A DNA stretch of 64,000 nt, taken from contig NZ_MSRR01000007.1 in assembly GCF_001956585.1 (NCBI RefSeq), forward strand, positions 1 through 64,000. Direction: 5' to 3'. Made by a program: the position numbers and the translations under genes. Positions 4,970 through 44,261 of this stretch are shown here, in pieces; position 1 is the first letter of the stretch, and every line of letters begins with the position of its first letter. The notes beneath the pieces are model-generated. The model saw only the letters and a list, made by a program, of their open reading frames with translations. It was not told where the DNA came from and made no database searches. This stretch comes from Actinomyces naeslundii. GTDB lineage: Bacteria; Actinomycetota; Actinomycetes; Actinomycetales; Actinomycetaceae.

Positions 4970-5049
4970 ATTATGCTGACGTCAGCACACCGACTACCTG
5001 CCGCGCGGTCACCAGGATAAGGCAAATAGTTGATGTACAAATCATGTAC
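4970..5049. promoter_or_regulatory. candidate operator region between ROK and DeoR genes
   Basis: A perfect 14-bp palindrome TGCTGACGTCAGCA lies at 4974-4987, next to a CATAAT hexamer (minus strand, 4970-4975) that could be the -10 box of the ROK gene. A direct repeat of ATGTAC with an 11-bp period (5033-5038 and 5044-5049) lies about 60 bp before the DeoR gene. Direct repeats one helical turn apart are common in DeoR-family operators. Binding is inferred only. Confidence 0.45.
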
Positions 5050-5110
5050 GCGCTCAGCCCCACCCCCTCTCCGCCCCGCACCACCCCCCTTGACCCCCAG
5101 GAGGATCGAG

Positions 5111-5887
5111 ATGTCTCGGCATGATCGCCATTCGGCCATCCTCGACATCGTCATGGACGAGGGCAGTGTCCATATCGACGACATCATCACGCGGTTGGGG
5201 GTCTCAGCGGCGACCGCACGGCGCGACCTCGACCACCTGGCGGATCAGCAGCTCATCAGCCGCACCCGCGGCGGTGCCATCGCCAACCCCACCTCCACCG
5301 AGCCGCCTCTGCGCTATCGCACCTCGAAGATGGCTGATGAGAAGGCCCGCATCGCCAAGGCGGCGGCAGCCATGGTGCACCCGGGCGACACCATCGGCCT
5401 CAACGGCGGCACCTCAACCACCGAGGTGGCCCGGGAGATCGTGCTGCTGCCGGATCTGACCGACCCGGACGTGCCGGTCACCCTGGTGACCAACGCCGTC
5501 AACATCGCCAACGAGATGACGGTGCGCCAGTGCGTACGCGTCGTCGTCACCGGCGGGATCGCACGCCCCCGATCCTTCGAGCTCACTGGCCCGCTGGCCG
5601 AGCTCATCCTGCCCTCGATCAGCGTGGACACACTCTTCCTGGGCGTCCAGGGCCTCGATGAGCGGGGCGCCTACGCTCAGCACGACGGCGAGGCAGCCGT
5701 TAACGCCGCCCTGGTCAGTGCCGCCCAACGCGTCGTCGTCGTGTGCGACAGCTCCAAGCTCGGTTCCACCGCCTTCGCCCTCATCTGCCCCACCAGCTCG
5801 ATCGACGTGGTCATCACCGACGACGGCGCCCCCGCCGACCAGGTCGAGGTCCTGCGTCGGGCGGGAGCCGAGGTACGGCTGGTCTAG
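5111..5887 (+). CDS. DeoR/GlpR-family transcriptional regulator
   Basis: The 258-residue protein has an N-terminal winged helix-turn-helix (VHIDDIITRLGVSAATARRD, about residues 17-36, then a GGA wing) and a C-terminal DeoR sensor domain with NGGTSTTE, VTGG and CDSSKLG blocks that in this family bind a sugar phosphate. It probably represses a carbohydrate gene set, perhaps itself and the divergent ROK gene. The start is fixed by CCAGGAGG immediately upstream; the frame is open further 5' but without protein-like sequence. The glycan cluster starts about 110 bp downstream on the same strand, with hairpins between, so co-transcription is uncertain. Confidence 0.9.
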   Translation: MSRHDRHSAILDIVMDEGSVHIDDIITRLGVSAATARRDLDHLADQQLISRTRGGAIANPTSTEPPLRYRTSKMADEKARIAKAAAAMVHPGDTIGLNGGTSTTEVAREIVLLPDLTDPDVPVTLVTNAVNIANEMTVRQCVRVVVTGGIARPRSFELTGPLAELILPSISVDTLFLGVQGLDERGAYAQHDGEAAVNAALVSAAQRVVVVCDSSKLGSTAFALICPTSSIDVVITDDGAPADQVEVLRRAGAEVRLV

Positions 5888-5944
5888 CCTCCGAGAAACC
5901 TGAGAGCTTTCTCATCCACCCTTAATCGTCGTCTTCTCCTGGCC

Positions 5945-5974
5945 GGTCAGGATCGTCTCAGAACGACCCTGACC
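5945..5974 (+). promoter_or_regulatory. stem-loop in front of the glycan cluster
   Basis: GGTCAGG (5945-5951) pairs with CCTGACC (5968-5974), and inside it TCGT pairs with ACGA around a CTCAGA loop, leaving one A.C mismatch. The hairpin ends 24 bases before the first ATG of the seven-gene cluster. It lacks a T-run, so it may be a weak terminator for the DeoR gene or a leader element. Confidence 0.5.
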
Positions 5975-5998
5975 TGACACCGAGAGAAGAGACGACCC

Positions 5999-7294
5999 AT
6001 GACAACCGCTCCCCTACGGGTGGCGCTCTACAGCCACGACGCCAAGGGGCTGGGGCACCTTCGCCGCAACCTCGCTCTGGCCCATCACCTGGCCCGAGCA
6101 CTGCCGGGACTCACCGGCCGTAACGTCACCGGCCTGGTCATCACCGGGCTGGCTCCGGGACAGGAGCACAGGCTTCCTGACGGTTTCGACTGGCTGGTAC
6201 TGCCGGGGGTCAAGAAGGCCAAGGGCGTCTACCTGCCTCAACGCCTGCGTATCACCCGTGAGGACCTGGGCCTGGTCCGCAGCGCTCTGCTGTCCGGTGT
6301 CCTGACGACCTTCACCCCGGACCTGCTCATCATCGACCGTCATCCCTACGGGGTGCACCAGGAGCTGCGCGAGCCCCTGGCACGTCTACGTCAGGCGAGC
6401 CCCCGCGCGCGCGTGGTGCTCGGCCTGCGCGAGGTCCTGGACACACCCGTGACCGTGCAGCGCGAGTGGGAGGAGCTCGGCGAGGCCGACACGCTGCGAC
6501 GGCTCATCGACGAGGTCTGGGTCTACGGGGACGACTCGGTCCACGACCTGAGCGCTACTGGTGAGGCTCCGACGGCGCTTGAGGAGCGGATGCGCTACAC
6601 CGGTTACCTCGCCCATGGCCGCGATGCCGCAGAGGCCACTCACGGTTCCGAGGCGTCAGAAGCCCTGGCCGGTAACGCCGAGGCTGCCGGAACCTTCATC
6701 CTGACCACCGCCGGCGGCGGCTCCGACGGCGTCAACCTGCTGCGTACCGCAGCCGCGGCGCGTGTCCCCGACGGGTACCGGCACGTCGTGGTCACCGGCC
6801 CCCAGCTCGACGCCGCCCTGTTCCACCAGGTCGCTCAGACAGCCGGCCCCCGCACCATCGTGCGCCGGTCCTGGCCCGGGATGAGCCACCACATCCAGCA
6901 GGCCGCAGCGGTCATCTCGATGGGCGGCTACAACACGGTCAGCGAGATCCTCGCCTCCGACACCCCGGCCCTCCTCGTCCCCCGAGAGACGCCTCGCCTC
7001 GAGCAGCTCATCCGGGCCACTGCTCTGAAGCACGCGGGCGCCATCGACCTCTTGAGAGTCACGGACCTGAGCACTGCGGCACTCGAGGACTGGCTCACCG
7101 AGCGGCTGAGCGATCAGGACGCCGGCACTCGCAGCCAGCTGGCGGGGCGACGTCGTCTGCGCCTGGACGGTCTGGAAACCGTCCCCCTGCTCGCCGCCGA
7201 GCTCCTCGGCAACCGGGACGACGTCCTCGACACCCGCCTCACTCACCTCACCAGCCACACCGTCAGCCTCACCAGGATGGAGATCCCCGCATGA
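5999..7294 (+). CDS. predicted glycosyltransferase (GT28/MGT-like, COG4671 type)
   Basis: The 431-residue protein begins with a GT-B style loop (YSHDAKGLGHLRRNLALA, residues about 11-28) of the kind in predicted glycosyltransferases related to MurG and diacylglycerol glucosyltransferases. The C-terminal half has a nucleotide-sugar site: TTAGGGSDG, then SMGGYNTVSE, the counterpart of the GGxNT motif of GT28 enzymes, followed by VPRETPRLEQ. There is no membrane segment. It is the first gene of the coupled cluster; its ATGA stop overlaps the next start. Donor and acceptor are unknown; a lipid or small-molecule acceptor is plausible from the relatives. Confidence 0.82.
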   Translation: MTTAPLRVALYSHDAKGLGHLRRNLALAHHLARALPGLTGRNVTGLVITGLAPGQEHRLPDGFDWLVLPGVKKAKGVYLPQRLRITREDLGLVRSALLSGVLTTFTPDLLIIDRHPYGVHQELREPLARLRQASPRARVVLGLREVLDTPVTVQREWEELGEADTLRRLIDEVWVYGDDSVHDLSATGEAPTALEERMRYTGYLAHGRDAAEATHGSEASEALAGNAEAAGTFILTTAGGGSDGVNLLRTAAAARVPDGYRHVVVTGPQLDAALFHQVAQTAGPRTIVRRSWPGMSHHIQQAAAVISMGGYNTVSEILASDTPALLVPRETPRLEQLIRATALKHAGAIDLLRVTDLSTAALEDWLTERLSDQDAGTRSQLAGRRRLRLDGLETVPLLAAELLGNRDDVLDTRLTHLTSHTVSLTRMEIPA

Positions 7295-8589
7295 GTCCCG
7301 CAACCGATCACCGGCAAGACACTCATCAGAACGGTGCCCGCATCGGATACGTCCTCAAGGTCTACCCGCGCTTCTCGGAGACCTTCATCGTCACCGAGAT
7401 CCTCGCCCGCGAGGCCCAGGGCGAGGACCTGAGCATCTACGCGCTGCGCCCTACCACGGACTCGCGCTTCCACCCCGAGATCGCCCGGGTGGCCGCCCGG
7501 GTCAACTGGGTGGGCCGGCCGGTACGGGCCATCGACATGTGGAGCCTGCTCACCGACGGCCTGACCCGCCAGGACGACCGCGAGCGCTTCGCCGCCATCA
7601 TGGCGGTGCTGGCCGACCTTCCCGGTGACGAGGTGGCTCAGGGCGTGGAGCTGGCGCGTCAGGCGCGCAGGGACTCCATCACGCACCTGCACGCGCACTT
7701 CGCGTCCCTGGCGGGCCGGGTCGCATGGATCGCCTCGGCCCTGACCGGCATCCCCTACACCGTGACCACCCACGCCAAGGACATCTTCCATGAGTCGGTG
7801 GATCCCGTGTGGCTGCGCCGGATCTGCGCCGACGCGCAACGAGTCGTCGCCATCAGCCGCTACAACGAGGCGCACCTGGGCAAGGTCCTAGCGGGAACAG
7901 GGGCCACGGTGTCGCTGCGCTACAACGCCATCGAGCTGGACCGCTTCTCCTACCGGGCCCCGCAGCCGGTGGCGTCCGGGAGGAGCGGACCGCTTCGGGT
8001 GTGCGCCGTGGGCCGCCTGGTGCCCAAGAAGGGCTTCGCCGATCTGATCGAGGCGGTGCGGATCCTGGTGAGCTCCAGCGTCGACGTCGAGGTGGAGCTG
8101 GCCGGTGACGGTGAGGAGCGCGAGCGCCTGACCGCGCAGATCGACCGCCTGGGACTGGCCAGCAGGGTTCGTCTGCTGGGTCCGCTCACGCAGGCGGAGG
8201 TGCGTGGTCTGTTGGCGCGCTCGGACGTGTTCGCAGCACCCTGCATCGAGGCGACCGACGGCAACATCGATGGTCTGCCCACGGTGGTCCTGGAGGCGAT
8301 GGCCTGCGGGACACCGGTGGTGGCCACAGCGGTCTCGGGACTGCCGGAGGTGGTTCACGACGGCGTCACCGGGCTCCTGCTGCCGCCCGGGGACCCTGCC
8401 GAGCTGGCGATGGCCCTGCGCGGGATCGCGCTGGGCGAGGTCGACACCGTCTCCTTGTCACGTGGGGCGCGCAGGCTCATCGAGGAGCACTTCGACTCCC
8501 GTGCCCAGGCCGAGGTGCTGGCCGCCTGGCAGTCGGGCCCCCGCCCCGCTCCCGCCGCGAGCCTGACCGATCAGGAAGGAGCCGCCTGA
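7291..8589 (+). CDS. glycosyltransferase family 4 (exopolysaccharide type)
   Basis: The 432-residue protein has the GT4 architecture: an N-terminal acceptor domain starting with YPRFSETFIVTEI (a motif of colanic-acid/exopolysaccharide transferases), THAKDIF, a linker with YNAIELDRF, and a C-terminal donor domain with VGRLVPKKGF and the E-x7-E region (EATDGNIDGLPTVVLEAMACGTP). GT4 enzymes are retaining transferases using nucleotide sugars. The ATG overlaps the upstream stop by 4 bp, and its TGA shares one base with the next ATG. It is cytoplasmic. The sugar it adds cannot be told from sequence. Confidence 0.88.
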   Translation: MSPATDHRQDTHQNGARIGYVLKVYPRFSETFIVTEILAREAQGEDLSIYALRPTTDSRFHPEIARVAARVNWVGRPVRAIDMWSLLTDGLTRQDDRERFAAIMAVLADLPGDEVAQGVELARQARRDSITHLHAHFASLAGRVAWIASALTGIPYTVTTHAKDIFHESVDPVWLRRICADAQRVVAISRYNEAHLGKVLAGTGATVSLRYNAIELDRFSYRAPQPVASGRSGPLRVCAVGRLVPKKGFADLIEAVRILVSSSVDVEVELAGDGEERERLTAQIDRLGLASRVRLLGPLTQAEVRGLLARSDVFAAPCIEATDGNIDGLPTVVLEAMACGTPVVATAVSGLPEVVHDGVTGLLLPPGDPAELAMALRGIALGEVDTVSLSRGARRLIEEHFDSRAQAEVLAAWQSGPRPAPAASLTDQEGAA

Positions 8590-9758
8590 TGCGGATCGCC
8601 TACATCTGCTGCGACCCGGGCATCCCGGTGTTCGGGACCAAGGGCGCCTCAGTGCACATCCAGGAGGTCGTCCGCGAGCTGCGATCCATCGGCCATGAGG
8701 TGGCCCTGTACGCCGTGCGCTCCGGAAAGCACGTTCCCGACGACCTCACCGACCTCGAGCTGCACCTGGAGGCCGTGGCCGACGTCGAGCCCGCCGAGCG
8801 GGAGCAGGCGCAGGCGCACGCCGCGGAGCGGATCGTCTCCCGGGTGATCGCCGACGGCGCCGACCTGGTCTACGAGCGATACTCCCTGTTCTCCACGGCA
8901 CTGGCCGACATCACGGCCGCCACCGGAGTGCCGGGGATCCTGGAGGTCAATGCCCCGCTGATCGATGAGCAGCGTCGTCACCGCTCGCTGGTGGACGCCT
9001 CCGGCGCGGCGCAGGTGCTGCACCGTCAGGTGGCGGCCGCCCGGGCCACGGTGTGCGTCTCGGACCCGGTGGCCGACTGGGTGCGTCGCCGCACCGCCGA
9101 TCTGCCGGACGCGAACGACGTCGTGGGCAGGATCCACACGGTTCCCAACGGTGTGAGCGTGCGCCGTATCCAGCCCCAGCCGGAGGACCCGGACCGGGTG
9201 GTCGTCACCTTCGTGGGGACTCTCAAGCCCTGGCACGGGGTGGCCGACCTCATCACGGCGGCGGCCCTGGCACGCCAGAGCTGGAGCCTGCGGATCATCG
9301 GGGACGGCCCCGAGATGGACTCGCTGCGTGCCCAGGCCGGACGCCTGGGGGTGGAGGTGGACTTCCGTGGGGCGGTCGCGCCGCAGGACATTCCCACCCA
9401 CGTGGCAGGCTCGGCGATCGGAGTGGCCCCTTACCCGGACCTGGGTGGGGGCGAGCAGCAGTACTTCTCCCCCATGAAGGTTCTGGAGTACCTGGCCGCG
9501 GGGCTCGCGGTCGTGGCCTCCGACGTCGGACAGGTCCCCCAGCTGCTTGAGGACGGCTCTGGACGGCACGGTGTGCTCGTAGCCCCCTCGGACCCCACAG
9601 CGCTGGCCGCGGCCCTGGATGATCTGGCGGTATGCCCGGACCGGCGCGCCCGCATGGGCCGCAGCGGGCGCCTTCTGGCCGAGCAGCGCCACTCCTGGCG
9701 TCGGACCGTCGCCCGGATCCTGGAGCTGGCCGGCCTCGCTCAGGGTGGTGAGCGGTGA
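8589..9758 (+). CDS. glycosyltransferase family 4
   Basis: The 389-residue GT-B protein has an N-terminal glycine-rich loop (DPGIPVFGTKGASVH, where GT4 enzymes bind substrate) and a C-terminal donor domain with VVTFVGTLKPWHGV, IIGDGPE and a late SPMKVLEYLAAGLAVVASDVG block. The last block is the E-x7-E-type region with the first Glu replaced, a common variant. It is joined to both neighbours by stop-start overlaps, so it should act in the same pathway as the two transferases before it. Specificity is unknown. Confidence 0.87.
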   Translation: MRIAYICCDPGIPVFGTKGASVHIQEVVRELRSIGHEVALYAVRSGKHVPDDLTDLELHLEAVADVEPAEREQAQAHAAERIVSRVIADGADLVYERYSLFSTALADITAATGVPGILEVNAPLIDEQRRHRSLVDASGAAQVLHRQVAAARATVCVSDPVADWVRRRTADLPDANDVVGRIHTVPNGVSVRRIQPQPEDPDRVVVTFVGTLKPWHGVADLITAAALARQSWSLRIIGDGPEMDSLRAQAGRLGVEVDFRGAVAPQDIPTHVAGSAIGVAPYPDLGGGEQQYFSPMKVLEYLAAGLAVVASDVGQVPQLLEDGSGRHGVLVAPSDPTALAAALDDLAVCPDRRARMGRSGRLLAEQRHSWRRTVARILELAGLAQGGER

Positions 9759-11581
9759 TGGGTGCGCCTGTGCTTCGGCACGCGGCCCAGGCGCACCGCT
9801 CCCCCATGTGCCAGACCTTGCGCCTGATAGGGCCCGATGCCGCGCCGCAGTGGCGTCTCATGGCCGGGGGCACGGTGGTGCTTCTGGCGGAAGTGGCCTT
9901 CCGGGTGCTGGAGCCCTGGCCCCTGAAGGTCGTCATCGACTCGTTGGTGGCCTCCATGGGCCGGCACACGGGCAGCGCACCCGCCACGATCTCCTCCTTG
10001 GTGGGGCTGGGCGTGGTCCTCCTGGTGCTCGTGGCCGGCCGGGCGGGGTGCAACTACCTGGCCACCGTGGCCTTCGCCCTGGTCGGTTCGCGCACGGCGG
10101 CCTCCCTGCGCAGTCGCGCCTTCCACCACGTCCAGGGGCTCTCCCAGCAGTTCCACGCCCGCAACCGCAGCGCGGACACTGTTCAGCGTCTCATCGCCGA
10201 CGTCAACCGCATGCAGGAGGTGGCCGTCACCGCCGGCCTGCCGATGGCCGCCAATACCTTGACCCTGCTGGTCATGGTCGTGGTCATGGTGTTCCTGGAC
10301 CCGCTGCTGGCCATGATCGTGGTCATGGCGGTAGTGGCCTTCGCGATCGCCTCCTCCGGCAACTCTCGACGGATCTCCGCGGCCTCCCTGCGCAGCCGCA
10401 AGTCGGAGGGGAACCTGGCCAACACGGCCCAGGAGGCGCTCGGCGCGATCAAGGTGGTCCAGGCCTACGGTCTGGAACCCCTGCTGCACAAGCGCTTCAC
10501 GGGCGCCAACACCGTCTCGCTGAGCGAGGGAGTGCGTTCACGCCGTATCGCCGCGCGCCTGGAACGTTCCACGGACGTCATCGTCGGCGTGGCCACGGCC
10601 GTGGTCATGGTCGGCGGGGGCATCCGAGTCCTGAACGGCGCCATGTCTCCGGGAGACCTCGTGCTCTTCACGACCTACCTGCGCACCACCATGAAGCCGC
10701 TTCGGGACATGGCCAAGTACACCGGCCGCATCGCCCGGGCGACGGCCTCGGGCGAGCGGGTCGCCGACCTCATGGCGGTCGAGCCCGAGATCGTCTCCCC
10801 GCACAACGCCGTCGTACTGGACCGGGTCCACGGCATGGTCCACTTCGATCACGTGCACGCCGCCTACGAGGGCCGCCGGGTGCTCCACGGCGTGAGCCTG
10901 ACAGTGGTCTCCGGTGAGCACGTGGCGCTCGTGGGGCCGTCGGGCTCAGGCAAGTCCACCCTGGTCTCCCTGGTGGTGCGAGCCCTGGATCCGACGTCGG
11001 GCACGGTCAGTCTCGACGGTTACAGCCTCGACGACCTGGACCTGAGGTTCCTGCGCTCGCAGGTCTCCGTCCTGCACCAGGAGGCGGTGCTGCTGACCGG
11101 CACGATCCGGGAGAACATCCGTCTGGGACGGCCAGACGCCACCGACGAGGAGGTCGAGGCGGCCGCGCGCGCCGCCCACGCCCATGACTTCATCACCCAG
11201 ATGCCTGAGGGCTATGACACGCCCGTGGGCGAGCGGGGCGGCACCCTCTCCGGGGGCCAGCGTCAGCGCATCGCCATCGCCCGGGCGCTGCTGCGCGACT
11301 CGCCGATCATCATCCTGGACGAGGCGACCACCGGACTGGACCCCGCCTCGACGTCGGCGGTGCTCGAGGCGATCGATGAGCTGGTGACCGGGCGCACAAC
11401 GCTGACGGTCACCCACGACCCTCAGGCCGCGATGCGCGCCGACCGGGTGGTGTGGATCCAGGACGGGCGGATCCTGTTGGAGGGCAGCCCGCAGCGGCTC
11501 CTGGACACCTCGGCCGAGTTCCGCCGGTGGGCGAACAGCCATCTGTCCAGCTCCTTCGCCCTGGAGGGGAGCGGATCGTGA
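9755..11581 (+). CDS. ABC exporter, fused membrane and ATPase domains (MsbA-like)
   Basis: The 608-residue half-transporter has about 350 residues of transmembrane domain (hydrophobic runs near residues 35-55, 80-110, 160-205 and 280-310) followed by an ATPase domain. Walker A is GPSGSGKST (about 392-400), the signature is LSGGQRQR (about 498), Walker B IIILDEAT (about 518), and a switch His lies in TVTHD (about 550). Such half-size exporters dimerise and move lipids, lipid-linked sugars or drugs outward. Between glycosyltransferases and kinases it most likely exports or flips the product of this cluster. The start overlaps the preceding gene by 4 bp (ATGA); a later ATG (residue 18) is possible. 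Confidence 0.9.
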   Translation: MMGAPVLRHAAQAHRSPMCQTLRLIGPDAAPQWRLMAGGTVVLLAEVAFRVLEPWPLKVVIDSLVASMGRHTGSAPATISSLVGLGVVLLVLVAGRAGCNYLATVAFALVGSRTAASLRSRAFHHVQGLSQQFHARNRSADTVQRLIADVNRMQEVAVTAGLPMAANTLTLLVMVVVMVFLDPLLAMIVVMAVVAFAIASSGNSRRISAASLRSRKSEGNLANTAQEALGAIKVVQAYGLEPLLHKRFTGANTVSLSEGVRSRRIAARLERSTDVIVGVATAVVMVGGGIRVLNGAMSPGDLVLFTTYLRTTMKPLRDMAKYTGRIARATASGERVADLMAVEPEIVSPHNAVVLDRVHGMVHFDHVHAAYEGRRVLHGVSLTVVSGEHVALVGPSGSGKSTLVSLVVRALDPTSGTVSLDGYSLDDLDLRFLRSQVSVLHQEAVLLTGTIRENIRLGRPDATDEEVEAAARAAHAHDFITQMPEGYDTPVGERGGTLSGGQRQRIAIARALLRDSPIIILDEATTGLDPASTSAVLEAIDELVTGRTTLTVTHDPQAAMRADRVVWIQDGRILLEGSPQRLLDTSAEFRRWANSHLSSSFALEGSGS

Positions 11582-12807
11582 ACCTTCCAGTCGCGACAGC
11601 GACCACGGCCGACGCCGTCTCCACGCTGCTCGACGCCGACCGGCTCAGTGAGCTCCTCGACCAACCTGTGCGGGCAGGCCGGCTGCGCATCAAGCCGAAC
11701 GTCTCGGTCCTGGTGTCCTTGACAGATCGCTCCACCGGGCTCACGTCCGGGTGGGCTCGGCTGCTCTGGCCGGTCTCGCATTCCAAGGCCGCCCAGGCCG
11801 AGCGCCTGGCCGCATCATTGGGACTCGACCAGGCTCCGGTCACCCGGGGTGCAGACGGCGACCTGCTGCTGCAGAGCGGTCCGGTTCACACCGATCCCAA
11901 GCTGGCCGAGCCGATGGCGGGCGCCGCCCGCCAGGGGGTACTGCGACCCTGGAAGGCCGGGGACGTCCTGCGCTACAACCCCTCACGGCGTCTCGTGCTG
12001 CGAGACGGCTCCACGGTGCTGCGGATACGTATTCGGCCCGGTGACCCGGCCGACGACGTCCATCGTGCCCTGGCCGAGCTCCTCCCGGTCCCGCGTCTGC
12101 TCGACTCCGAGTCCGTGGCCCGGTGCCAGGGGCATGTCAGCATCCAGCAGTGGTGCGGCGACACGAACCTGGCCGAGCTCTTCGACGCCCGTACCGCTGA
12201 GCACACCACGTCCGAGGTCGTCTCCGAGACCGCAGCCGGTGCCACGCGGCGCGTGGGGGCGCTGCTGGCCGAGCTGCACTCCTGCGTGGAAGCGCTGAAG
12301 CCGGAGCTCGTCGACCGGCTGCCTCACCGGCATCCCGATCCTCGGGACCTGGCCGAGGTTCATGCCCGTCAGCTCGATGCCCTGGACCCCGACCTGGCAC
12401 GCCGCGTGCGGGCGGTGGGCGGCATGCTGCCCGCCCGGCTGCCGGGCGATCCGGTCCTCGCTCACGGCGACGCCTCCCCCGACCAGGTGTTGTACGAGCG
12501 CTCCTCCGGGCGGATCTGGCTGACCGACTTCGACCGGGTGCGCCTAGCGCCGGCAGTCGCCGACCTGGGCTCCTACCTCGCGGTGGCTCCGGCCTCCCAA
12601 GAGCGCGCCCTGCTGGAGGGCTACGCCGAGCGCCGACCGGTGCCCTGCGCCGAGCAGCTGGGGGTGGCGGTCGCCCGCTCGCGCCTGGCGCGGCTGGCCG
12701 ACCCTCTGCGCCGAGCCGATCCGTCCTGGCGTGAGCGCATCGGAGCGGAGCTGGCCGTCATTGAGCGCATCGCCCGGTCACCTGAGAAGGAGGTCGGGTG
12801 GGCATGA
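11578..12807 (+). CDS. APH-fold phosphotransferase, first of two
   Basis: The 409-residue protein carries the small-molecule kinase loop of the aminoglycoside phosphotransferase/choline kinase fold, HGDASPDQ (residues 296-303), and a metal-binding DFD (317-319). The family's conserved Asn of HxDxxxxN is Gln here. The N-terminal lobe seems to carry two similar strand motifs, LRIKP (36-40) and LRYNP (131-135), each followed by a Val/Leu strand, so the lobe may be duplicated. The GTG start overlaps the exporter stop in GTGA; protein-like sequence starts exactly there. The substrate is unknown; from context a sugar, sugar-lipid or exported glycoside is more likely than an antibiotic. Confidence 0.82.
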   Translation: MNLPVATATTADAVSTLLDADRLSELLDQPVRAGRLRIKPNVSVLVSLTDRSTGLTSGWARLLWPVSHSKAAQAERLAASLGLDQAPVTRGADGDLLLQSGPVHTDPKLAEPMAGAARQGVLRPWKAGDVLRYNPSRRLVLRDGSTVLRIRIRPGDPADDVHRALAELLPVPRLLDSESVARCQGHVSIQQWCGDTNLAELFDARTAEHTTSEVVSETAAGATRRVGALLAELHSCVEALKPELVDRLPHRHPDPRDLAEVHARQLDALDPDLARRVRAVGGMLPARLPGDPVLAHGDASPDQVLYERSSGRIWLTDFDRVRLAPAVADLGSYLAVAPASQERALLEGYAERRPVPCAEQLGVAVARSRLARLADPLRRADPSWRERIGAELAVIERIARSPEKEVGWA

Positions 12808-13901
12808 GCGAAGCCGCGACTACGACACGGATGACTGAGATGACACAGAAACCAGAAGTAACCGGCATGCTGAGCACGCTGCGCGCGATCCCGGGGCTGC
12901 GCCGCGCCTGGCCCGAGCACCGGAGCTCGGGCTCCACGAGCATGAGCATCGAGTGCGTCGATGGGGAAGGGCGTCTGCGCGCCGGTCACGTCACCGCCGG
13001 AGCGACTCCCGACCTGCTGCCCTATGCCACTGACCCGGCCCTGCCTGCCTTGTCCACGCACCTGACCGGGGCGCTCGTCGTCCACCGCGCCGGCCGCCGC
13101 GCCGTGGTGATGGAGGATTCCCGGGTTCGCAAGATCGTACGACCCCTCAGGGCCGTCTCCCTGGTACGTGCGCACACGAGCGCCGCCTCGGTGCTGCGAG
13201 TCACCGGCCTGCGCACCCCCAGGATCCTGGGCAACGAGGACGACGTCGTCGATCTCGAGCTGCTGCCCGGCCGCAGCCTCGACGAGCTCGGCGATGCCGG
13301 CCTGCCCGGGTGGCAGCGGCTCACGGACTCCTGGGCCCACCTGGCCCACGACAAGGCGGACCTGCCCGTCCACGGGCCGCGTCAGGAGACCGAGGTGCTG
13401 CGCCGATGGTTCGCCTCCGCCCAACGCCACGGAGTCATCGACCAGCCGGCTCCCCTGCACGAGCAGGTGGTGGACACCTGCCTGAGCCTGCGGGAGGACG
13501 ACGGGGAGCGCGTCATCGCCCACCGCGACCTCCACGACGGCCAGCTCCTGTGGGACGGAATCGATCTCTCCCTGCTCGACCTGGACACCGCGGCCATGGC
13601 CGAGGCTGCTCTCGACCTGGGCAACCTCTGGGCCCATGCGGATCTCATGGCGGTTCAGGGACGGCTCAGCCCCGAGGCCCACGCACAGGTCCGCGGGCTG
13701 CTCGACAACCTGGCCCGCACGCTGCCCATGACGGCGGAGCGTCTGGAGACCTACTACCGATCCTCGGCGCTGCGACTCGTCTTCGTCCACGCCTTCCGGC
13801 CCATCGCCCACCAGTGGCTGCCCATCTGGGTGCGCCACTGCCTGGGGCACGCCTCGCCTTTCGCCCCCCTCGACCTCAGCAACGATTGGAACAACTCATG
13901 A
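12804..13901 (+). CDS. APH-fold phosphotransferase, second of two
   Basis: The 365-residue protein has an APH-type catalytic loop HRDLHDGQ (240-247) and metal-binding DLD (259-261); as in its neighbour, the usual Asn is Gln. The N-terminal lobe is divergent, with no clear glycine-rich loop. The ATG at 12804 lies in an ATGA overlap with the upstream stop and has AAGGAGG ten bases before it; a GTG at 12798 is an alternative. It resembles its neighbour only around the catalytic loop, so the two kinases probably do different steps. Its stop overlaps the dehydrogenase start by 4 bp. Confidence 0.8.
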   Translation: MSEAATTTRMTEMTQKPEVTGMLSTLRAIPGLRRAWPEHRSSGSTSMSIECVDGEGRLRAGHVTAGATPDLLPYATDPALPALSTHLTGALVVHRAGRRAVVMEDSRVRKIVRPLRAVSLVRAHTSAASVLRVTGLRTPRILGNEDDVVDLELLPGRSLDELGDAGLPGWQRLTDSWAHLAHDKADLPVHGPRQETEVLRRWFASAQRHGVIDQPAPLHEQVVDTCLSLREDDGERVIAHRDLHDGQLLWDGIDLSLLDLDTAAMAEAALDLGNLWAHADLMAVQGRLSPEAHAQVRGLLDNLARTLPMTAERLETYYRSSALRLVFVHAFRPIAHQWLPIWVRHCLGHASPFAPLDLSNDWNNS

Positions 13902-15223
13902 CCCCTCTCAAGCTCACCGTCATCGGCTGCGGATACCTCGGTGCCGTCCACGCCGCCGCTATGGCACACCTGGGACACCACGTCCTGGGAATCGATACCC
14001 GGACCGAGCAGGTCGAGGCCCTCTCCCAGGGCCGCGCCCCCTTCTACGAGCCGGGCCTTCCCGAGCTGCTGATCACCGGCGTCCAGCAGGGCGATCTGCG
14101 CTTCACCTCGGCGCCGACGGCGGCGGAGCTGGCCGAGGCCGACGTCCACTTCATCGCCGTGGGCACCCCGCAGTCCGCCACCGGCGGTGAGGCGGATCTG
14201 AGCCAGCTGTGGAGCGTGGTCGACATGCTTCATGACGCCCTGCCCGAGGGCGGGCGCAGCGTCGTGGTGGGCAAGTCGACCGTTCCTGTCGGCACCGCCC
14301 AACAGGTGGCCGAGCGCCTGGCCGACCGCGCTCTGGTGCTGTGGAACCCCGAGTTCCTGCGCGAGGGCTTCGCCGTGGCCGACACCCTCCACCCCGACCG
14401 CATCGTCTACGGGATGCCCGCCGACTCCCGCGACGCCCAGGAGGCCCAGGCCGCTCTCGACGCCGTCTACCGGCCCCTGCTGGAGGAGGGCATTCCCCGC
14501 ATCGTCACCGACTACCCCACCGCCGAGCTGGTCAAGACCGCAGCGAACTCCTTCCTGGCCACCAAGATCAGCTTCATCAACGCCATGGCCCACCTGTGCG
14601 ACACCGCGGGTGCCGATGTCACTGTCCTGGCCGACGCGATCGGCCACGACCCGCGCATCGGCAGGCGCTTCCTCCAGGCCGGTGTCGGATTCGGCGGAGG
14701 CTGCCTGCCCAAGGACATCCGGGCTCTGCAGGCCAGCGCCGACATTCACGGCGCCAGGCACCTGGCGGACCTGCTGGGGCGGGTCGACTCCATCAATCGC
14801 GAGCAGCGCGACCGGATCGTCGAGCTGGCTCGCACCCACGTGGGAGGAGACTTCTCCGGCAAGGCGATCACCATCCTGGGAGCCGCCTTCAAGCCCCTGA
14901 GCGACGACGTGCGCGACTCCCCCGCCCTGGACGTCGCCTCCCGCCTGGCCGACCTCGGGGCGGAGGTGACCGTCTGCGACCCGCAGGCCCTGCCCGTCGT
15001 GGCCAGGTCCCACCCCCATCTCACGGTGGAGGAGGACCCCCGCACCGCGCTCAAGGGCGCCGAGCTGGTCCTGCTCCTGACCGAGTGGGACCAGTTCGTG
15101 GCCCTCGACCCTGCTGACGCTGCCACCGACGTCGCCGATCGCGTCATCATCGACGGACGCAACGCCCTGGACCCGGTGGCATGGCGCCAGGCCGGGTGGA
15201 CCTACGCGGGGGTGGGACGCTGA
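13898..15223 (+). CDS. UDP-glucose 6-dehydrogenase
   Basis: The enzyme oxidises UDP-glucose to UDP-glucuronate with two NAD+. The 441-residue protein has the Rossmann motif GCGYLG (residues 10-15), the EPGLPELL block, GKSTVPVG, NPEFLREG, the central helix residues TAELVKTAANSFLATKISF, and the catalytic Cys269 in GFGGGCLPKD. The sequence could also fit a GDP-mannose dehydrogenase, but the length and EPGL block favour UDP-glucose. The true start is the ATG overlapping the upstream stop; the frame is open further 5' by chance. As last gene of the cluster it implies that UDP-glucuronate, or a sugar made from it, feeds the glycosyltransferases. Confidence 0.9.
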   Translation: MTPLKLTVIGCGYLGAVHAAAMAHLGHHVLGIDTRTEQVEALSQGRAPFYEPGLPELLITGVQQGDLRFTSAPTAAELAEADVHFIAVGTPQSATGGEADLSQLWSVVDMLHDALPEGGRSVVVGKSTVPVGTAQQVAERLADRALVLWNPEFLREGFAVADTLHPDRIVYGMPADSRDAQEAQAALDAVYRPLLEEGIPRIVTDYPTAELVKTAANSFLATKISFINAMAHLCDTAGADVTVLADAIGHDPRIGRRFLQAGVGFGGGCLPKDIRALQASADIHGARHLADLLGRVDSINREQRDRIVELARTHVGGDFSGKAITILGAAFKPLSDDVRDSPALDVASRLADLGAEVTVCDPQALPVVARSHPHLTVEEDPRTALKGAELVLLLTEWDQFVALDPADAATDVADRVIIDGRNALDPVAWRQAGWTYAGVGR

Positions 15224-15297
15224 GTACTGCCGCAACCGGTTCCGCCCGGACCCGGACTCGCCGAACGGAGCCCAGTGGATCCGGGCACAATGGCGAC

Positions 15298-16815
15298 GTG
15301 ACCTCACTGATGCCCACCCGTACCATCACCATCGGTACCCGCGTCATGTGGGCGATCGTGCTGGTCGCAGGCGTCGCACTGGTCACCTGCGGTGCGATCG
15401 TGTGGGCGCTGGGGCACTCGAGCGTGTCGGCCGACGCCACGAACCGGCTCGAGCACAGCCGAGACCGGATCCGCGAGCTGGCCGCGGAGGGTACGGATCC
15501 CTCCAGCGGCCGGCCCTTGGAGGACGTCTCAGCGGTGCTTCGCGTCCACATCCAGCGTACTGCGGAGGGACCCGGTGAGGCCGAGCTCGGATTCGTGGGG
15601 ACCAGCTCCAATACGGAGCTGGTCTGGGTCTCCTCCGACAACGTCTCCTTCCGCCCGGAGAAGGACGCGAAGCTGCTCAAGCACGTGACCTCCCGGGCCG
15701 CCGCATCGGAGTCGGTCATCGAGACGGTACGCACCCCCTCATCGAGCTACCGGGTCCTCGTCGTCCCGGTCCAGGGCGGCTCCCAGCACGGGGCACTCGT
15801 GCACGTCATCGACCTCAAGGTCGCCGAGTCCCAGCTCCTGCGCACCATGGCCTTCTACGCCGCGGCGGCCGTCTTCACCGTCGCCCTGGTGACCGGCCTG
15901 GCCTGGTTCGCCGTCGAGCGGCTCCTGCGCCCCATCGAGCAGCTGCGGCGCGCCACCGAGTCCATCGGCGAGGACGACCTGACCACCCGGGTCCCGGTCA
16001 AGGGCCGAGACGATCTGACCGCCCTGGCCGCAGCCGTCAACCGGATGCTGGACCGGGTCCAGACCTCGGTGGAGGCGCAGCGCAACCTGCTCGACGACGT
16101 CGGCCACGAGCTGCGTACGCCCATCGCCGTGGTCCGTGGGCACCTAGAGCTCACCGACCCCTCCGACCCCGAGGATGTGCACCAGACCCAGCTGCTGGCC
16201 ATTGATGAGCTCGACCGGATGGGTGTGCTCATCGATGATCTGATCCTGCTGGCCAAGAGCGCCCAGAGCGACTTCATCACTCCGGTGGACACCGATGTCG
16301 CCGAGCTCACCGAGATGGTCTTCGACAAGTCCCTCGCCCTGGGCGAGCGCCGGTGGCAACTGGAGTCGGCGGCCTTCACCCGCGCGATGATCGATCCCAC
16401 CCGAATCACCCAGGCCTGGCTCCAACTGGTGGCCAATGCCGTGAAGTACTCCAGTCACTACAGCACCGTCCGCCTGGGCTCGGCGGTGAGGGACGGACGC
16501 CTGCTGATGTGGGTGGGCGACGAGGGCATCGGGATCGCCGCCGAGGAGATCGAGGTGGTGCGTCAACGGTTCAAACGCACCGCCGGTGCTCAGGAGATGA
16601 GCTCGGGAACAGGGCTGGGACTGAGTATCGTGGAGACGATCGTCGCAGCGCACGGGGGGCGACTGGACATACGCTCTGAGGTGGGCGAGGGATCGGTGTT
16701 CACCATGACGATCCCTCTGGAGGCGTCCCCTGTTCCGTCCTCGTCCGAGACCGCGACCTCGGGCGACGTCGGTGCCTCACCCCCTGAACAGTCCCCGACA
16801 GCGTCCAAGGAGTGA
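15298..16815 (+). CDS. two-component sensor histidine kinase (OmpR-type partner)
   Basis: The 505-residue kinase has an N-terminal membrane segment (about residues 15-38), an extracellular sensor of about 145 residues, a second segment (184-206), a HAMP linker, a HisKA domain with His270 in GHELRTP, and a catalytic ATPase domain with N-box (QLVANAVKYSS), GDEGIG and GTGLGLSIVE. It should autophosphorylate and pass phosphate to the regulator that follows. The start is uncertain: GTG 15298 is taken because membrane-protein sequence starts just after; ATG 15310 is also possible, and neither has a strong ribosome site. Only 74 bp separate it from the glycan cluster. Confidence 0.9.
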   Translation: MTSLMPTRTITIGTRVMWAIVLVAGVALVTCGAIVWALGHSSVSADATNRLEHSRDRIRELAAEGTDPSSGRPLEDVSAVLRVHIQRTAEGPGEAELGFVGTSSNTELVWVSSDNVSFRPEKDAKLLKHVTSRAAASESVIETVRTPSSSYRVLVVPVQGGSQHGALVHVIDLKVAESQLLRTMAFYAAAAVFTVALVTGLAWFAVERLLRPIEQLRRATESIGEDDLTTRVPVKGRDDLTALAAAVNRMLDRVQTSVEAQRNLLDDVGHELRTPIAVVRGHLELTDPSDPEDVHQTQLLAIDELDRMGVLIDDLILLAKSAQSDFITPVDTDVAELTEMVFDKSLALGERRWQLESAAFTRAMIDPTRITQAWLQLVANAVKYSSHYSTVRLGSAVRDGRLLMWVGDEGIGIAAEEIEVVRQRFKRTAGAQEMSSGTGLGLSIVETIVAAHGGRLDIRSEVGEGSVFTMTIPLEASPVPSSSETATSGDVGASPPEQSPTASKE

Positions 16816-16821
16816 CCCACC

Positions 16822-17481
16822 ATGAGCAGCATCCTCATCATTGAGGACGAGCCCCGCATCGTCGCGTTCCTCACCAAGGGCCTCAAAGCGGCCGGGTTCA
16901 CCACGCACACTACCGCCGCAGGACGGGAGGCCGTGGAGCTCGCACTCCAGACAAGCTTCGACCTCATCATCCTGGACGTGGGCCTACCCGACATCGACGG
17001 TTTCGAGGTGCTCCAACAGCTACGTGGTCAGGGGGTGACGGCGCCGGTCATCATGCTTACGGCGCGCTCCTCGGTGGCCGATCGCGTCGCCGGGCTCGAG
17101 GGCGGCGCGGACGACTACATGCCCAAGCCCTTCTCCTTCGAGGAGCTCCTGGCCCGTATCCGGGTGCGACTGCGTCCGGAGGCTGCGGGAGCGGACCAGA
17201 TGAGGTTGACCCACCGCGACATGGTCCTGGACCTGCGCACCCGGACCCTGACGCTGGAGGGCCGGACAGTGGAGCTCTCGGCTCGGGAGTTCGCCCTGGC
17301 CGAGACCTTCATGCGCCACCCCGGCCAGGTCCTCAGCCGTGAGCAGCTCCTGAGCACCGTGTGGGGGCTGGACTTCGACCCCGGCTCCAACGTGGTGGAG
17401 GTCTACGTCTCCTACCTGCGCAACAAGCTGGGCAGGGACAGGGTGGAGACGGTACGCGGCATGGGTTACCGGCTCACCTGA
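16822..17481 (+). CDS. OmpR/PhoB-family response regulator
   Basis: The 219-residue regulator has an N-terminal receiver domain with acidic residues IEDE (7-10), phospho-acceptor Asp52 in LIILDVGLPD, Thr in MLTARS and Lys in MPKPFSF. A C-terminal winged helix follows, with the ELSAREFALAE and NVVEVYVSYLRNKLG blocks and an RGMGYRL end. It starts six bases after the kinase stop with a GGAGTGA ribosome site overlapping that stop, so the two genes are one unit. Its target genes cannot be read from here; the adjacent glycan cluster is an obvious candidate. Confidence 0.94.
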   Translation: MSSILIIEDEPRIVAFLTKGLKAAGFTTHTTAAGREAVELALQTSFDLIILDVGLPDIDGFEVLQQLRGQGVTAPVIMLTARSSVADRVAGLEGGADDYMPKPFSFEELLARIRVRLRPEAAGADQMRLTHRDMVLDLRTRTLTLEGRTVELSAREFALAETFMRHPGQVLSREQLLSTVWGLDFDPGSNVVEVYVSYLRNKLGRDRVETVRGMGYRLT

Positions 17482-17495
17482 TCCGCCGCCCCCGC

Positions 17496-17527
17496 GACGC
17501 CGCGCACTGGCCGGTGACCGCGGCGTC
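17496..17527. terminator. GC-rich stem-loop between convergent genes
   Basis: GACGCCGCG (17496-17504) pairs perfectly with CGCGGCGTC (17519-17527) around a 14-nt loop. It lies between the response regulator and the convergent membrane-protein gene, so it could end transcription from both sides, though no T-run follows. Confidence 0.55.
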
Positions 17528-17549
17528 AGCCATCTCGTCAGTCGTCCAT

Positions 17550-18047
17550 TCAGTCATCGATGTCGCGGTCGTCGTCATCGGCTTCTTTTTGCACACCGTT
17601 TCTGGCCGGCTTCCTGTCGTCGTCATCATTGTCGACCTCGGTGCGGGAGTCATCGGATCCCCCGGTCGCGGCCGGGGCAACGGGAGCAGCGGGCGCTACC
17701 TGATGACTGCCGTGGTCGACGGCGACAGGAGGATCGGGCTCAACCGCCTGAGGCGCGTGGCCCTGCGTCGAGGAGTCCGATGAGTCTGCGGCTCCCGCTT
17801 CGGCGCTGCCCGGCTCGTGCTGGGTACTGCTGGCACCGCCGGCACTCCGGCTCGGCCTCGCCGTGGTCGAGGACTGGGATGACGTGACCTGTGGGGTTGC
17901 CGTCAGGACGATTCCCGGCTCCTTCGCCGACTCGGCGGGGTGGGAGAACACCATGCGGGTGACCGCGAGCAGGAGGCCCGCTGTCACAACGACGACCGTG
18001 GTGGCAACGACGCGGCCACGACCGAAACGACGCAGCAGACTCTCCAC
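17550..18047 (-). CDS. small membrane-anchored acidic protein, unknown
   Basis: I do not recognise this protein. From the GTG at 18047 it has 165 residues: a short basic N-terminus (ESLLRRFGRGR), one hydrophobic segment (VVATTVVVVTAGLLLAV), then a low-complexity Ser/Thr/Pro/Ala-rich region and a strongly acidic tail (VDNDDDDRK...EADDDDRDIDD). The topology suggests an extracellular tail anchored by an N-terminal segment. The start was chosen for its upstream AAGGGGG; the frame is open to 18128 but the extra residues look non-coding. The acidic Asp runs could bind cations, which is speculation. Confidence 0.6.
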   Translation of the reverse strand: MESLLRRFGRGRVVATTVVVVTAGLLLAVTRMVFSHPAESAKEPGIVLTATPQVTSSQSSTTARPSRSAGGASSTQHEPGSAEAGAADSSDSSTQGHAPQAVEPDPPVAVDHGSHQVAPAAPVAPAATGGSDDSRTEVDNDDDDRKPARNGVQKEADDDDRDIDD

Positions 18048-18226
18048 TCCAGCGTCCCCCTTCTCCCTCGGTTGTCCTGGACCCGTCCGACTTTCGTCGA
18101 CCGTAACACGAATGAGATGACAAAGCACTGGAGCACGGCACCGGGAGAATCACAGAACTGATCCGCCCGCTTCTTAGAATCAGCACAACTCCAAGGCGTC
18201 CCAACGTTGCTCGGAGGCGCGAGAAC

Positions 18227-19522
18227 TCAGGGACGGATGTGGCCAGCGCCCTCGACGATCCAGGTCGTCGTCGTCAGCTCGGTCAGGCCCATGGGGCCGC
18301 GGGCGTGGAGCTTCTGGGTGGAGATTCCCAGCTCGGCGCCCAGGCCCAGCTGCCCGCCGTCGGTGAAGCGGGTCGAGGCGTTGACCATAATGGCCGCCGA
18401 GTCCATACCGGCGATGAAGGCGTTGATGACACCCACGTCCTGGGCGAGGACCGCCTCGGTGTGCCCGGTGGTGTGGGACCGGATGTGGTCGATGGCCTCC
18501 TCCAGGTTCTCGACAACGCGCACGGCCAGGTCCAGTGACCCGTACTCGGTGTCCCAGTCGGCCTCGGTGGCCTCGGTCAGGAACGCCTCGCGTCCGCTGC
18601 CGGAAGCGACTTCGGCCAGGATCCGGCGAGCGACGGGATCGGCGTGCAAGGTGGTGTCCTTGCCCCACAGGGCGGCAGCAGCGGCCGGTAGGTAGCTGGC
18701 GGCGACGTCGGCGTGGACCAGGAGCGTCTCGGCGGCATTGCACACGCCGACGCGCTGGGTCTTGGCATTGACGATGATGTCCACCGCCGTCTCGAGATCG
18801 GCGCTGGAGTCGACGTAGACGTGGCAGTTGCCCGATCCGGTCTCAATGACGGGGACGGTGGACTGCTCGACGACGGTACGGATGAGCCCGGCCCCGCCGC
18901 GAGGCACGAGGGCATCGACCAGACCGTGGGCGCGCATGAGGGCGCGGGCCCCGTCCCGACCTGCGGCATCGACGCTCGCAACGAGGTCTGCGGGCAGTCC
19001 CTGCGCCTCCAGGGCGCCGCGCAGGGCCGCGACGATGGCGGCGTTGGAGTCCTGGGCGGCGCTGCCTCCGCGCAGGACAATGGCGTTGCCGGACTTGACG
19101 GCCAGGGCGGCGGTGTCGACGGTGACGTTGGGGCGGGCCTCGTAGATCATGCCGACGACGCCCAGTGGCACCCGCACCCGGCGCACTCGCAGTCCGTTGG
19201 GCATGACCGAGCCGTCAACGACCTGACCAACGGGGTCGGGCAGGGCGGCCACCTCGTGCAGCGAGTCGGCGATGGCTGACAGCCGCTCGCTGTCCAGGGC
19301 CAGGCGGTCGAGGAGACCGGCCTTCATTCCCGCCTGGCGTCCACGCTCCAGATCGGCGGCGTTGGCCGCAAGGATCGCTTCGCCGTGCTCGGTGAGGCTG
19401 CGGGCCATGGCCTCCAGGGCGGCATCCTTGACGGCACGTGGAGCCCCGGCAAGGCTCCGTTGCGCCACACGGGCTGAGCGGGCGGTTGCGGTGACAAGCT
19501 CGTAGGCGTCGACGTCGTTCAT
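18227..19522 (-). CDS. proA: glutamate-5-semialdehyde dehydrogenase (gamma-glutamyl phosphate reductase)
   Basis: ProA reduces gamma-glutamyl phosphate to glutamate 5-semialdehyde with NADPH, the second step of proline synthesis. The 431-residue protein has family landmarks: PLGVVGMIYEARPNVT, SGNAIVLRGG, VPRGGAGLI, ETGSGNCHVYVD and the catalytic Cys in RVGVCNAAETLLV, with a C-terminal LGLGAELGISTQKLHARGPMG block. It follows proB on the same strand, separated by about 230 bp, so the pair is not tightly coupled. Confidence 0.96.
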   Translation of the reverse strand: MNDVDAYELVTATARSARVAQRSLAGAPRAVKDAALEAMARSLTEHGEAILAANAADLERGRQAGMKAGLLDRLALDSERLSAIADSLHEVAALPDPVGQVVDGSVMPNGLRVRRVRVPLGVVGMIYEARPNVTVDTAALAVKSGNAIVLRGGSAAQDSNAAIVAALRGALEAQGLPADLVASVDAAGRDGARALMRAHGLVDALVPRGGAGLIRTVVEQSTVPVIETGSGNCHVYVDSSADLETAVDIIVNAKTQRVGVCNAAETLLVHADVAASYLPAAAAALWGKDTTLHADPVARRILAEVASGSGREAFLTEATEADWDTEYGSLDLAVRVVENLEEAIDHIRSHTTGHTEAVLAQDVGVINAFIAGMDSAAIMVNASTRFTDGGQLGLGAELGISTQKLHARGPMGLTELTTTTWIVEGAGHIRP

Positions 19523-19750
19523 AGGGCCACCATAGAAGAAGATTCCTCCTCAGCAGGAGCCCCTGAGGAAGGGCGGGAGGGCAACGGGGTCGCCGTAGGG
19601 GTGGGAGCTCAGGGGCGGCGGCGACTGCATCCACGGCCCGGTGGGCGGCCAACCGGAAGGCTGCTGCGGGGGCGAGTGACTCACCCGACCATTGTGTCCT
19701 ACCGATCGATCGAATCACCGGGGCCCGTGGTGGCCCCCGACATGGTGGCC

Positions 19751-43344: not shown

Positions 43345-44261
43345 TGGGAGCCGCAACCACCGCTGAGAGTCGAAGGCGCCACAGAGCTCCCCAAGACACA
43401 CTACGCATCATCGCTTACCTGACACCCGGCATGACAGGGTTTCTGGTTTTCATCATCATCCCCCTGATCGCGTCACTGATCATCTCGTTGTTTTCATGGT
43501 CGCTTCTGGGAACATCAGAGTTCGTCGGCCTTGACAACTATCGACGAATGATTTCCGGGGAGGACCCAGCGTTCTACACCATCCTTAAGAACACCGTGGT
43601 GTTCGCCCTTCTATACACAGGTGCCAACCTCATCATCTCCACTGGTATCTCATACTGGCTGCAGCACCTCCCCAACAGGTTCTCTCGAGTGCTGCGAATC
43701 ATCTTCTTCATCCCCGTCGTCACCCCAATGGCAGGGAATGCGTTGATCTGGCGCCTCCTCCTCAATGACGAAGGGGTGGTGAACTCTGCCCTCAACAGCA
43801 TAGGGCTCCCCTCGCTACCCTGGCTGAACAACCCCAGCCTTGCCATGGGTTCGCTCGTCATCATGAGCTTATGGCAGGGTCTTGGCTACAACATCGTGGT
43901 CCTTACTGCCGGCCTCAACGGCATCAACCCGTCCATACTGGAGGCCAGCGAGCTCGACGGCGCAACTGGATTCAGACGATTCTTCCAGGTCGTCTTCCCC
44001 ATCCTGTCTCCGACTTTCTTCTTCTGCACCGTCATGACCGTCATCGGAGCATTCAAGGTGTTCGCACAACCATTCTTTCTCACAAAAGGAGGACCAGGTG
44101 AGTCGACAAACACCATTGTGCTCGCACTATACCGCAACGGCTTCTCCTTCGACAAGCTGGGCTACGCCTCCGCCCTGGCCTGGATACTATTCGTCATCGT
44201 TATGCTGCTGACGGCCCTTCAATTCAGCCAGCAGAAGAGGTGGGTGAACTATGACTCTTGA
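43341..44261 (+). CDS. sugar ABC transporter permease (MalF/UgpA-like)
   Basis: The 306-residue membrane protein has six predicted helices, the first at GFLVFIIIPLIASLIISLF, and the EAA loop EASELDGATGFRRFFQVVFP that docks with the ATPase. The ATG overlaps the binding-protein stop by 4 bp and its end overlaps the next permease by 11 bp, showing tight coupling. A second ATG lies one codon later. Confidence 0.93.
   Translation: MMGAATTAESRRRHRAPQDTLRIIAYLTPGMTGFLVFIIIPLIASLIISLFSWSLLGTSEFVGLDNYRRMISGEDPAFYTILKNTVVFALLYTGANLIISTGISYWLQHLPNRFSRVLRIIFFIPVVTPMAGNALIWRLLLNDEGVVNSALNSIGLPSLPWLNNPSLAMGSLVIMSLWQGLGYNIVVLTAGLNGINPSILEASELDGATGFRRFFQVVFPILSPTFFFCTVMTVIGAFKVFAQPFFLTKGGPGESTNTIVLALYRNGFSFDKLGYASALAWILFVIVMLLTALQFSQQKRWVNYDS

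Follow-up and report, generated by a model that had tools for sequence, protein, structure and literature searches.

Gene Content of the Island

The window analyzed here is a stretch of 64,000 nucleotides from Actinomyces naeslundii (contig C7, positions 1–64000, NZ_MSRR01000007.1, of a 3.12-Mb genome), and the subject of this report is a gene island near its 5′ end. The fixed core of the island is six genes, encoding three cytosolic glycosyltransferases (GT28, GT4a and GT4b), an ABC exporter and a pair of related APH-fold kinases (APH1 and APH2). A UDP-glucose 6-dehydrogenase (UGDH) gene and a two-component pair, consisting of a sensor histidine kinase (HK) and a response regulator (RR), follow on the same strand (Table 1). 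A first-pass annotation of this DNA had described a cluster of seven genes ending with UGDH; all seven open reading frames (ORFs) can be read from the sequence where it placed them, and profile searches matched the family that it gave to each. It had overlooked the HK/RR pair directly downstream, which is part of the unit in the genus Actinomyces. HK begins 77 bases past the end of UGDH, at a GTG start inferred from orthologues, and the gene for a DeoR-type regulator upstream of the cassette ends at 5887. A full-text literature search, with most subscription journals outside its reach, returned no publication on this cassette and no characterized match, and the island is real, conserved and apparently uncharacterized. 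Little is understood about the glycans on the surface of Actinomyces, Schaalia, Arachnia and Rothia.

Table 1. Genes of the island and extent of the missing block, in window coordinates.
Feature	Position	Strand	Evidence or extent
GT28, glycosyltransferase with MurG-like C-terminal half	5999..7294	+	PF04101, 32.7 bits (cut-off 22)
GT4a, GT4 glycosyltransferase, EpsE-like	7291..8589	+	PF13692/PF00534
GT4b, GT4 glycosyltransferase	8589..9758	+	PF13692
ABC exporter, transmembrane and nucleotide-binding domains (TMD-NBD) in one chain, MsbA/ABCB type	9755/9758..11581	+	PF00664, PF00005
APH1, APH-fold kinase with an additional N-terminal part	11578..12807	+	PF01636, 58 bits (cut-off 23.2)
APH2, APH-fold kinase related to APH1	12804..13901	+	PF01636, 26.4 bits (cut-off 23.2)
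UGDH, UDP-glucose 6-dehydrogenase, optional member	13898..15223	+	TIGR03026, 384.4 bits (cut-off 189.8)
HK, sensor histidine kinase	15301..16815	+	HAMP/HisKA/HATPase; two hydrophobic segments
RR, OmpR-type response regulator	16822..17481	+	PF00072, PF00486
Island, absent as a single block from the close relative G003	about 5926..17823		11,898 bp; blastn

Conservation and Distribution of the Six-Gene Core

Named genome contigs were scanned with GT4b, which gave 372 confirmed relatives; the best 80 loci were examined, and core genes were called by tblastn at a score of at least 60 bits. The core GT28-GT4a-GT4b-ABC-APH1-APH2 is complete in 68 of these 80 named loci, with identical order and strand in all 68. 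Ten of the 12 incomplete loci are cut by the end of the available stretch, and one (L113) lacks an APH1 match over the threshold. The last, in a metagenome-assembled genome (MAG) of Corynebacterium (L131), is a real exception, with the order GT4b-APH1-APH2-UGDH and no GT28, GT4a or ABC gene adjoining; it is possibly a minimal or rearranged form of the cassette.

The cassette is sporadic, yet strongly conserved where it is found. GT28 (E ≤ 1e-40) is present in 15 of 296 genomes of the class sample and in 26 of 151 genomes of the family sample, and GT4b (E ≤ 1e-60) in 9 of 198 genomes of the phylum sample. All 15 class-sample loci were viewed, and 13 have the full six-gene order; G042 reaches the contig edge after GT4b, and G104 has GT28 beside an ABC gene only. 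Second, weaker GT28 matches also occur without the full order, in G241 (no core partner seen) and in G087 (ABC gene adjoining, contig end near). The retention of order and strand in both samples bears out the first-pass view of a co-inherited machine rather than scattered genes. The suggested check, that kinases and exporter always occur together, gave a mixed answer: they mostly travel together, with L131, G013 and L166 as exceptions. L166 has a weaker GT28 relative adjoining an ABC gene and no kinases, and in Actinomyces G013 the kinases are split over two partial cassettes (L044 and L211). The G013 cassettes read GT28-GT4a-ABC-APH1-HK-RR and GT28-GT4a-GT4b-ABC-APH2. When the flanks of the 80 loci were clustered, the four most frequent families (8 to 11 of the 80) lay on the opposite strand across the core genes and were set aside; the next families are each present in 7 of 80. 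UGDH and HK/RR are the only further partners proposed.

The ABC protein of the window is closest to that of Actinomyces johnsonii (93%), followed by other oral Actinomyces and A. oris. In a descent tree of 70 ABC proteins, in which the root is unsure, as are some long branches (L141, L048, L119 and L079), the window protein groups with 22 Actinomycetaceae, 11 of 12 Propionibacteriaceae, four Rothia and three Corynebacterium MAGs. This 41-member group (support 100/100) stands apart from Arthrobacter, Kocuria, Brevibacterium and Cryobacterium. The Micrococcaceae are thereby divided, with Rothia away from Kocuria and Arthrobacter, and the well-supported branches force four changes. The genera of the group are mainly host-associated, and the split of the Micrococcaceae suggests that the cassette may have been exchanged among such genera, with paralogy as an alternative. 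Cassette genes are also carried by a record titled Acidobacteria MAG (L141) and by one titled Vibrio cholerae 35D (L145, left out of the tree); both records are probably misbinned or contaminated.

Stop-Start Overlaps

The core genes and UGDH are joined by overlapping stop and start codons: ATGA at 7291, TGATG at 8587, GTGATG at 9755, GTGA at 11578, and ATGA at 12804 and 13898. All six overlapping junctions of the first-pass annotation are thus real, except that the third reads GTGATG and not ATGA, so that the exporter could start in frame at GTG 9755 (overlap 4) or at ATG 9758 (overlap 1).

The position of start codons relative to the upstream stop was compared over the 80 named loci, at −4 and at 13 other in-frame offsets. 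A start codon lies at exactly −4 in 41 of 75 GT28/GT4a junctions, 29 of 72 GT4a/GT4b, 44 of 77 GT4b/ABC, 56 of 67 ABC/APH1, 55 of 63 APH1/APH2 and 16 of 35 APH2/UGDH junctions; a start at −1 is found in 34 loci at GT4a/GT4b and in 14 at GT4b/ABC. The remaining in-frame offsets hold 0–7 starts each, save for nine at +14 (GT4a/GT4b). These recurrent −4 and −1 overlaps are far above the other offsets and exceed chance, which supports selection for tight coupling as a likely explanation. The exact overlap is not universal, because the downstream gene is in a different frame relative to the stop in about a third or more of the loci at three junctions (28 of 75 at GT28/GT4a, 25 of 77 at GT4b/ABC and 14 of 35 at APH2/UGDH). 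In one locus (L046, 4969–7479), a single 837-codon open frame covers both GT4a and GT4b, which may be naturally fused there.

The Two-Component Pair and the Island as One Block

In the genus Actinomyces, the HK/RR pair belongs to the unit. Among 49 Actinomyces genomes, searched for GT28 at E ≤ 1e-10 and for HK at E ≤ 1e-60, the two genes are present together in the same 34 and absent together from the same 15, and RR follows HK in every locus viewed that has HK.

The island is missing as one block from a close relative, G003. At the corresponding locus (L235), blastn places window positions 5001–5925 (87%) and 17824–19559 (89%) side by side with 2 bp between them; eight flanking genes are 62–96% identical to those of the window, and the DeoR gene and proA are adjacent, about 0.44 kb apart. 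In two sets of genus loci, the cassette has proA on its downstream side in 18 of 19 and 12 of 16. Since proA follows most cassettes of the genus, loss of the 11.9-kb block in G003 appears likelier than separate gains in the others. proA was also found in 14 of the 15 cassette-less Actinomyces genomes. Eight of these 14 were viewed: DeoR and proA are direct neighbors in five (L235–L239), a gap of about 2.9 kb separates them in L241, and L240 and L242 gave no DeoR match. Close strains differing by the island make its role testable through simple comparison. A 192-codon ORF without a Pfam match lies on the minus strand between RR and proA (17553–18128), and the G003 junction falls inside it.

The Two APH-Fold Kinases

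The kinases are confidently modeled as APH-type folds, with predicted structures of high local confidence (pLDDT, predicted local distance difference test, 95.3 for APH1 and 92.0 for APH2), in agreement with the PF01636 scores and with their first-pass naming. APH kinases use a catalytic Asp in the HxD loop and a metal-binding Asp, and usually carry an ATP-binding Lys in the N-lobe. The corresponding motifs are HGDxSPDQ and DFDR in APH1 and HRDLHDxQ and DxDT in APH2; where Q stands in both motifs, N is usual in APH kinases. In APH1, D298 and Q303 are conserved in 59 of 59 sequences and D317 in 58 of 59. In APH2, D242 is conserved in 63 of 64, D259 in 64 of 64 and K110 in 62 of 64. The kinases match each other in profile comparison (probability 97.6 over 211 columns), and their N-terminal parts span residues about 1–101 in APH1 and about 1–73 in APH2, with no hydrophobic segment in either protein. 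PDB matches of both are generic. Maltokinase and glucosamine kinase are among the Foldseek matches of APH2 (4u94, 5jy7 and 6hwl), at 14–16% identity and with TM-scores of 0.35–0.45. Three proteins were scanned with PADLOC, and none had a match at E ≤ 1e-5.

Transferases, Exporter and Dehydrogenase

GT28 has a profile match to MurG (1f0k, E = 7.7e-10). GT4a scores 193 bits against the EpsE model, under the cut-off of 400, and the solved relatives of GT4b are headed by Tll1590, followed by phosphatidylinositol mannosyltransferases and D-inositol 3-phosphate glycosyltransferase. No hydrophobic segment was found in any of the three. The exporter carries the NTPase motifs (Walker A, LSGGQ, Walker B and H-loop), and its kin are ABCB/MsbA proteins, the phosphatidylcholine translocator ABCB4 among them. 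As a TMD-NBD exporter with these motifs it resembles the MsbA-type lipid flippases (TIGR02204, 394 bits; TIGR02203, 370.5 bits), but the scores are below the curated cut-offs (780 and 602, respectively) and the host is Gram-positive.

UGDH is an optional member of the unit. The protein, an NDP-sugar dehydrogenase that probably acts on UDP-glucose, matches 4a7p (E = 3.8e-88), its GGGCLPKD string aligning with the catalytic Cys motif of that structure, and of the seven solved chains nearest to it most bear the name UDP-glucose dehydrogenase; against the TuaD model it scores 336.4 bits, below the cut-off of 700. Among the 34 GT28-bearing Actinomyces genomes, UGDH lies directly after APH2 in 24 and is missing beside the cassette in ten (G005, G012, G013, G014, G020, G339, G341, G344, G347 and G016, where the cassette is decayed). 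Of the 70 named loci that contain APH2, 35 have UGDH directly downstream and 11 have it elsewhere or inverted; it is absent from the available stretch in 23, and one stretch is too short. The first-pass annotation had made glucuronic acid a defining part of the product. This proposal is weakened because UGDH is so often absent and because the window's genome encodes three further dehydrogenases of the family, and with the adjacency counting against it, glucuronic acid was dropped as a defining feature.

Comparison with Known Systems

Like the Wzx/Wzy, Wzm/Wzt and teichuronic acid loci, the unit combines glycosyltransferases with a UDP-glucose dehydrogenase and an exporter. It differs from them in that its nine products include no phosphoglycosyltransferase (PGT), polymerase, Wzx or chain-length protein, and in having two kinases and a dehydrogenase that is optional and scores under the TuaD cut-off. 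The lack of a PGT or polymerase, as the first-pass annotation had recorded for the locus, argues for a short product. A kinase and a glycan-lipid exporter in one pathway are also seen in lipopolysaccharide (LPS) synthesis, where WaaP and WaaY are LPS-core kinases acting before MsbA, and WbdD is a capping kinase. This likeness serves as a working analogy only, the kinases of the unit belonging to the PF01636 APH family.

Homologues of GT28 and GT4a occur in the same order, at 33–37% identity, in alphaproteobacterial clusters on Rhizobium pRL11 and on Azospirillum and Sulfitobacter plasmids (L147, L148 and L150); by annotation, Ruegeria likewise has the GT28-GT4a order. A third transferase is present in these clusters, a nucleotide-sugar dehydrogenase is near in L148 and L150, and a histidine phosphatase and a polysaccharide deacetylase occur in L147, L148 and L149. 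In contrast to the actinobacterial cassette, their large ABC protein is only remotely similar to the exporter, and no APH gene is annotated in the stretches viewed (five records, one with GT28 alone). Judging by this shared order, GT28-GT4 seems to be a wider module, with the APH pair as the apparent mark of its actinobacterial version among the clusters seen. One Rhizobium gene, pRL110056, is listed among O-antigen genes required for root colonization (PMC11103875); its place in the Rhizobium homologue cluster is not established, and it was not used here.

Proposed Function and Alternatives

Our preferred reading, held with about even confidence, is that of an optional, two-component-regulated island building a short, probably phosphorylated glycoconjugate, with the MsbA-type ABC protein flipping it to the outside. 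GT28, GT4a and GT4b would add sugars successively onto a membrane lipid or other amphipathic acceptor, UDP-glucuronate from the optional UGDH being one possible donor. APH1, APH2 or both would phosphorylate the acceptor or a sugar, the ABC protein would flip the finished short glycoconjugate, and the HK/RR pair probably activates the operon when it senses an envelope signal. Gene content, overlaps, gene order, co-occurrence with HK in the genus, the single-block absence and the catalytic residues are observed; we infer the lipid acceptor, the number and identity of the sugars, the kinase substrates, the order of the steps and control of the operon by RR. The first-pass outline thus holds in part, with the regulator added and glucuronate given a lesser place.

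Several observations weigh against this reading. The homology of the GT4 and ABCB proteins is too general to name an acceptor or a cargo. At the expected β3 Lys position of APH1, as located from the strands of the model, Arg is found in 48 of 59 sequences and Lys in 10 of 59, so that APH1 could be a weak or non-catalytic partner. As to regulation, the 49 Actinomyces genomes are related by descent and do not count as independent events, and G016 has an intact HK/RR pair beside decayed fragments of GT28, GT4a and APH1 (L047, contig C10, 8373–9649), which implies that the regulator can outlive the cassette. HK/RR matches lie within 3.5 kb downstream in 31 of the 70 named loci and upstream in five, with none in 34 (three of the 70 have short flanks). 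In the class sample, HK (E ≤ 1e-45) is found in 90 of 296 genomes, the window's own and 89 at 32–44% identity, and among the GT28-bearing genomes only G213 has a listed HK beside the cassette. HK/RR was considered as a class-wide partner and dropped, the link being patchy beyond the Actinomycetaceae and some Propionibacteriaceae.

The cassette could instead supply a larger wall polymer with its lipid-linked repeat or linkage unit, with PGT and LCP enzymes encoded elsewhere responsible for initiation and attachment. This alternative, which we judge unlikely, is kept alive by the two PGT and four LCP genes of the window's genome and by another UGDH gene that adjoins an LCP gene on contig C15; GT28, moreover, resembles MurG, which acts on a polyprenyl-linked acceptor. 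All of the PGT and LCP genes lie on contigs other than C7, where no match to either family was found, and the cassette itself is optional, both of which speak against it.

The product could also be a diffusible, signal- or antibiotic-like glycoside, inactive inside the cell through phosphorylation and then exported by the ABC protein. The fold neighbors of both kinases include antibiotic kinases, the placing of APH-fold kinases next to an ABC exporter is reminiscent of self-protection in antibiotic clusters, and the sporadic occurrence of GT28 in the class sample would suit such a product. However, no scaffold-forming enzyme is found among the nine products, and the near-constant gene content over seven named families would better fit a constant envelope product, which leaves this explanation doubtful.

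In A. oris, LcpA attaches a glycan to GspA, and it is improbable that the cassette is the pathway making this glycan. PMC6381275 ascribes the glycan to a separate pathway, which it calls unknown. A GspA-like gene is found in 36 of the 49 Actinomyces genomes, 30 of the 34 with the cassette and six of the 15 without it, a correlation that shared ancestry can explain. G003, which has no cassette, retains a GspA-like protein with 80% identity to that of the window strain, and four of the 34 cassette-bearing genomes lack a GspA-like match; the GspA assignment itself comes from the window strain only, where it is based on the adjoining LCP gene and on the sorting-signal-like end of the protein. On balance, this comparison leans against the GspA glycan. 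The pair in question (L218, contig C1, 6708–8938), an LCP gene adjoining a surface protein gene with a sorting-signal-like LAQTG end, is probably lcpA/gspA.

Modification of a peptide by the APH-fold proteins, as by LxmK in class V lanthipeptide synthesis, is hardly credible: NF038156 scores of 27.9 and 18.2 bits are far under the cut-off of 315, the Z-score is tied with that of homoserine kinase (20.3), and no lyase is found among the nine products (no search for a short precursor peptide was made).

The glycoconjugate reading can be taken further, to a self-contained regulated island for an undescribed class of phosphorylated glycolipids in Actinobacteria, in which the two APH-type kinases license MsbA-type export. 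Such a system would be a Gram-positive analogue of the LPS-core kinases with MsbA, exchanged among mucosal Actinobacteria. We regard this extension, drawn by analogy, as speculative and rather unlikely. Should the kinases indeed work ahead of export, Gram-positive bacteria would have a newly recognized means of licensing the glycolipids of their envelope.

Other Observations

A possible link between the island and the hosting of Saccharibacteria was considered and set aside after the literature search gave nothing usable. The search for signals upstream and downstream of the unit found no sigma-70-like site and two terminator-like hits, against 1.7 in shuffled sequence, and RNA folding after RR is unexceptional (z = 0.47). 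Farther downstream in the window, positions 42094–46419 have a G+C content of 0.56–0.58, compared with about 0.70, and encode a sugar ABC importer (a binding protein and two permeases) together with an alpha-L-fucosidase; this is perhaps an acquired locus for fucosylated glycans.

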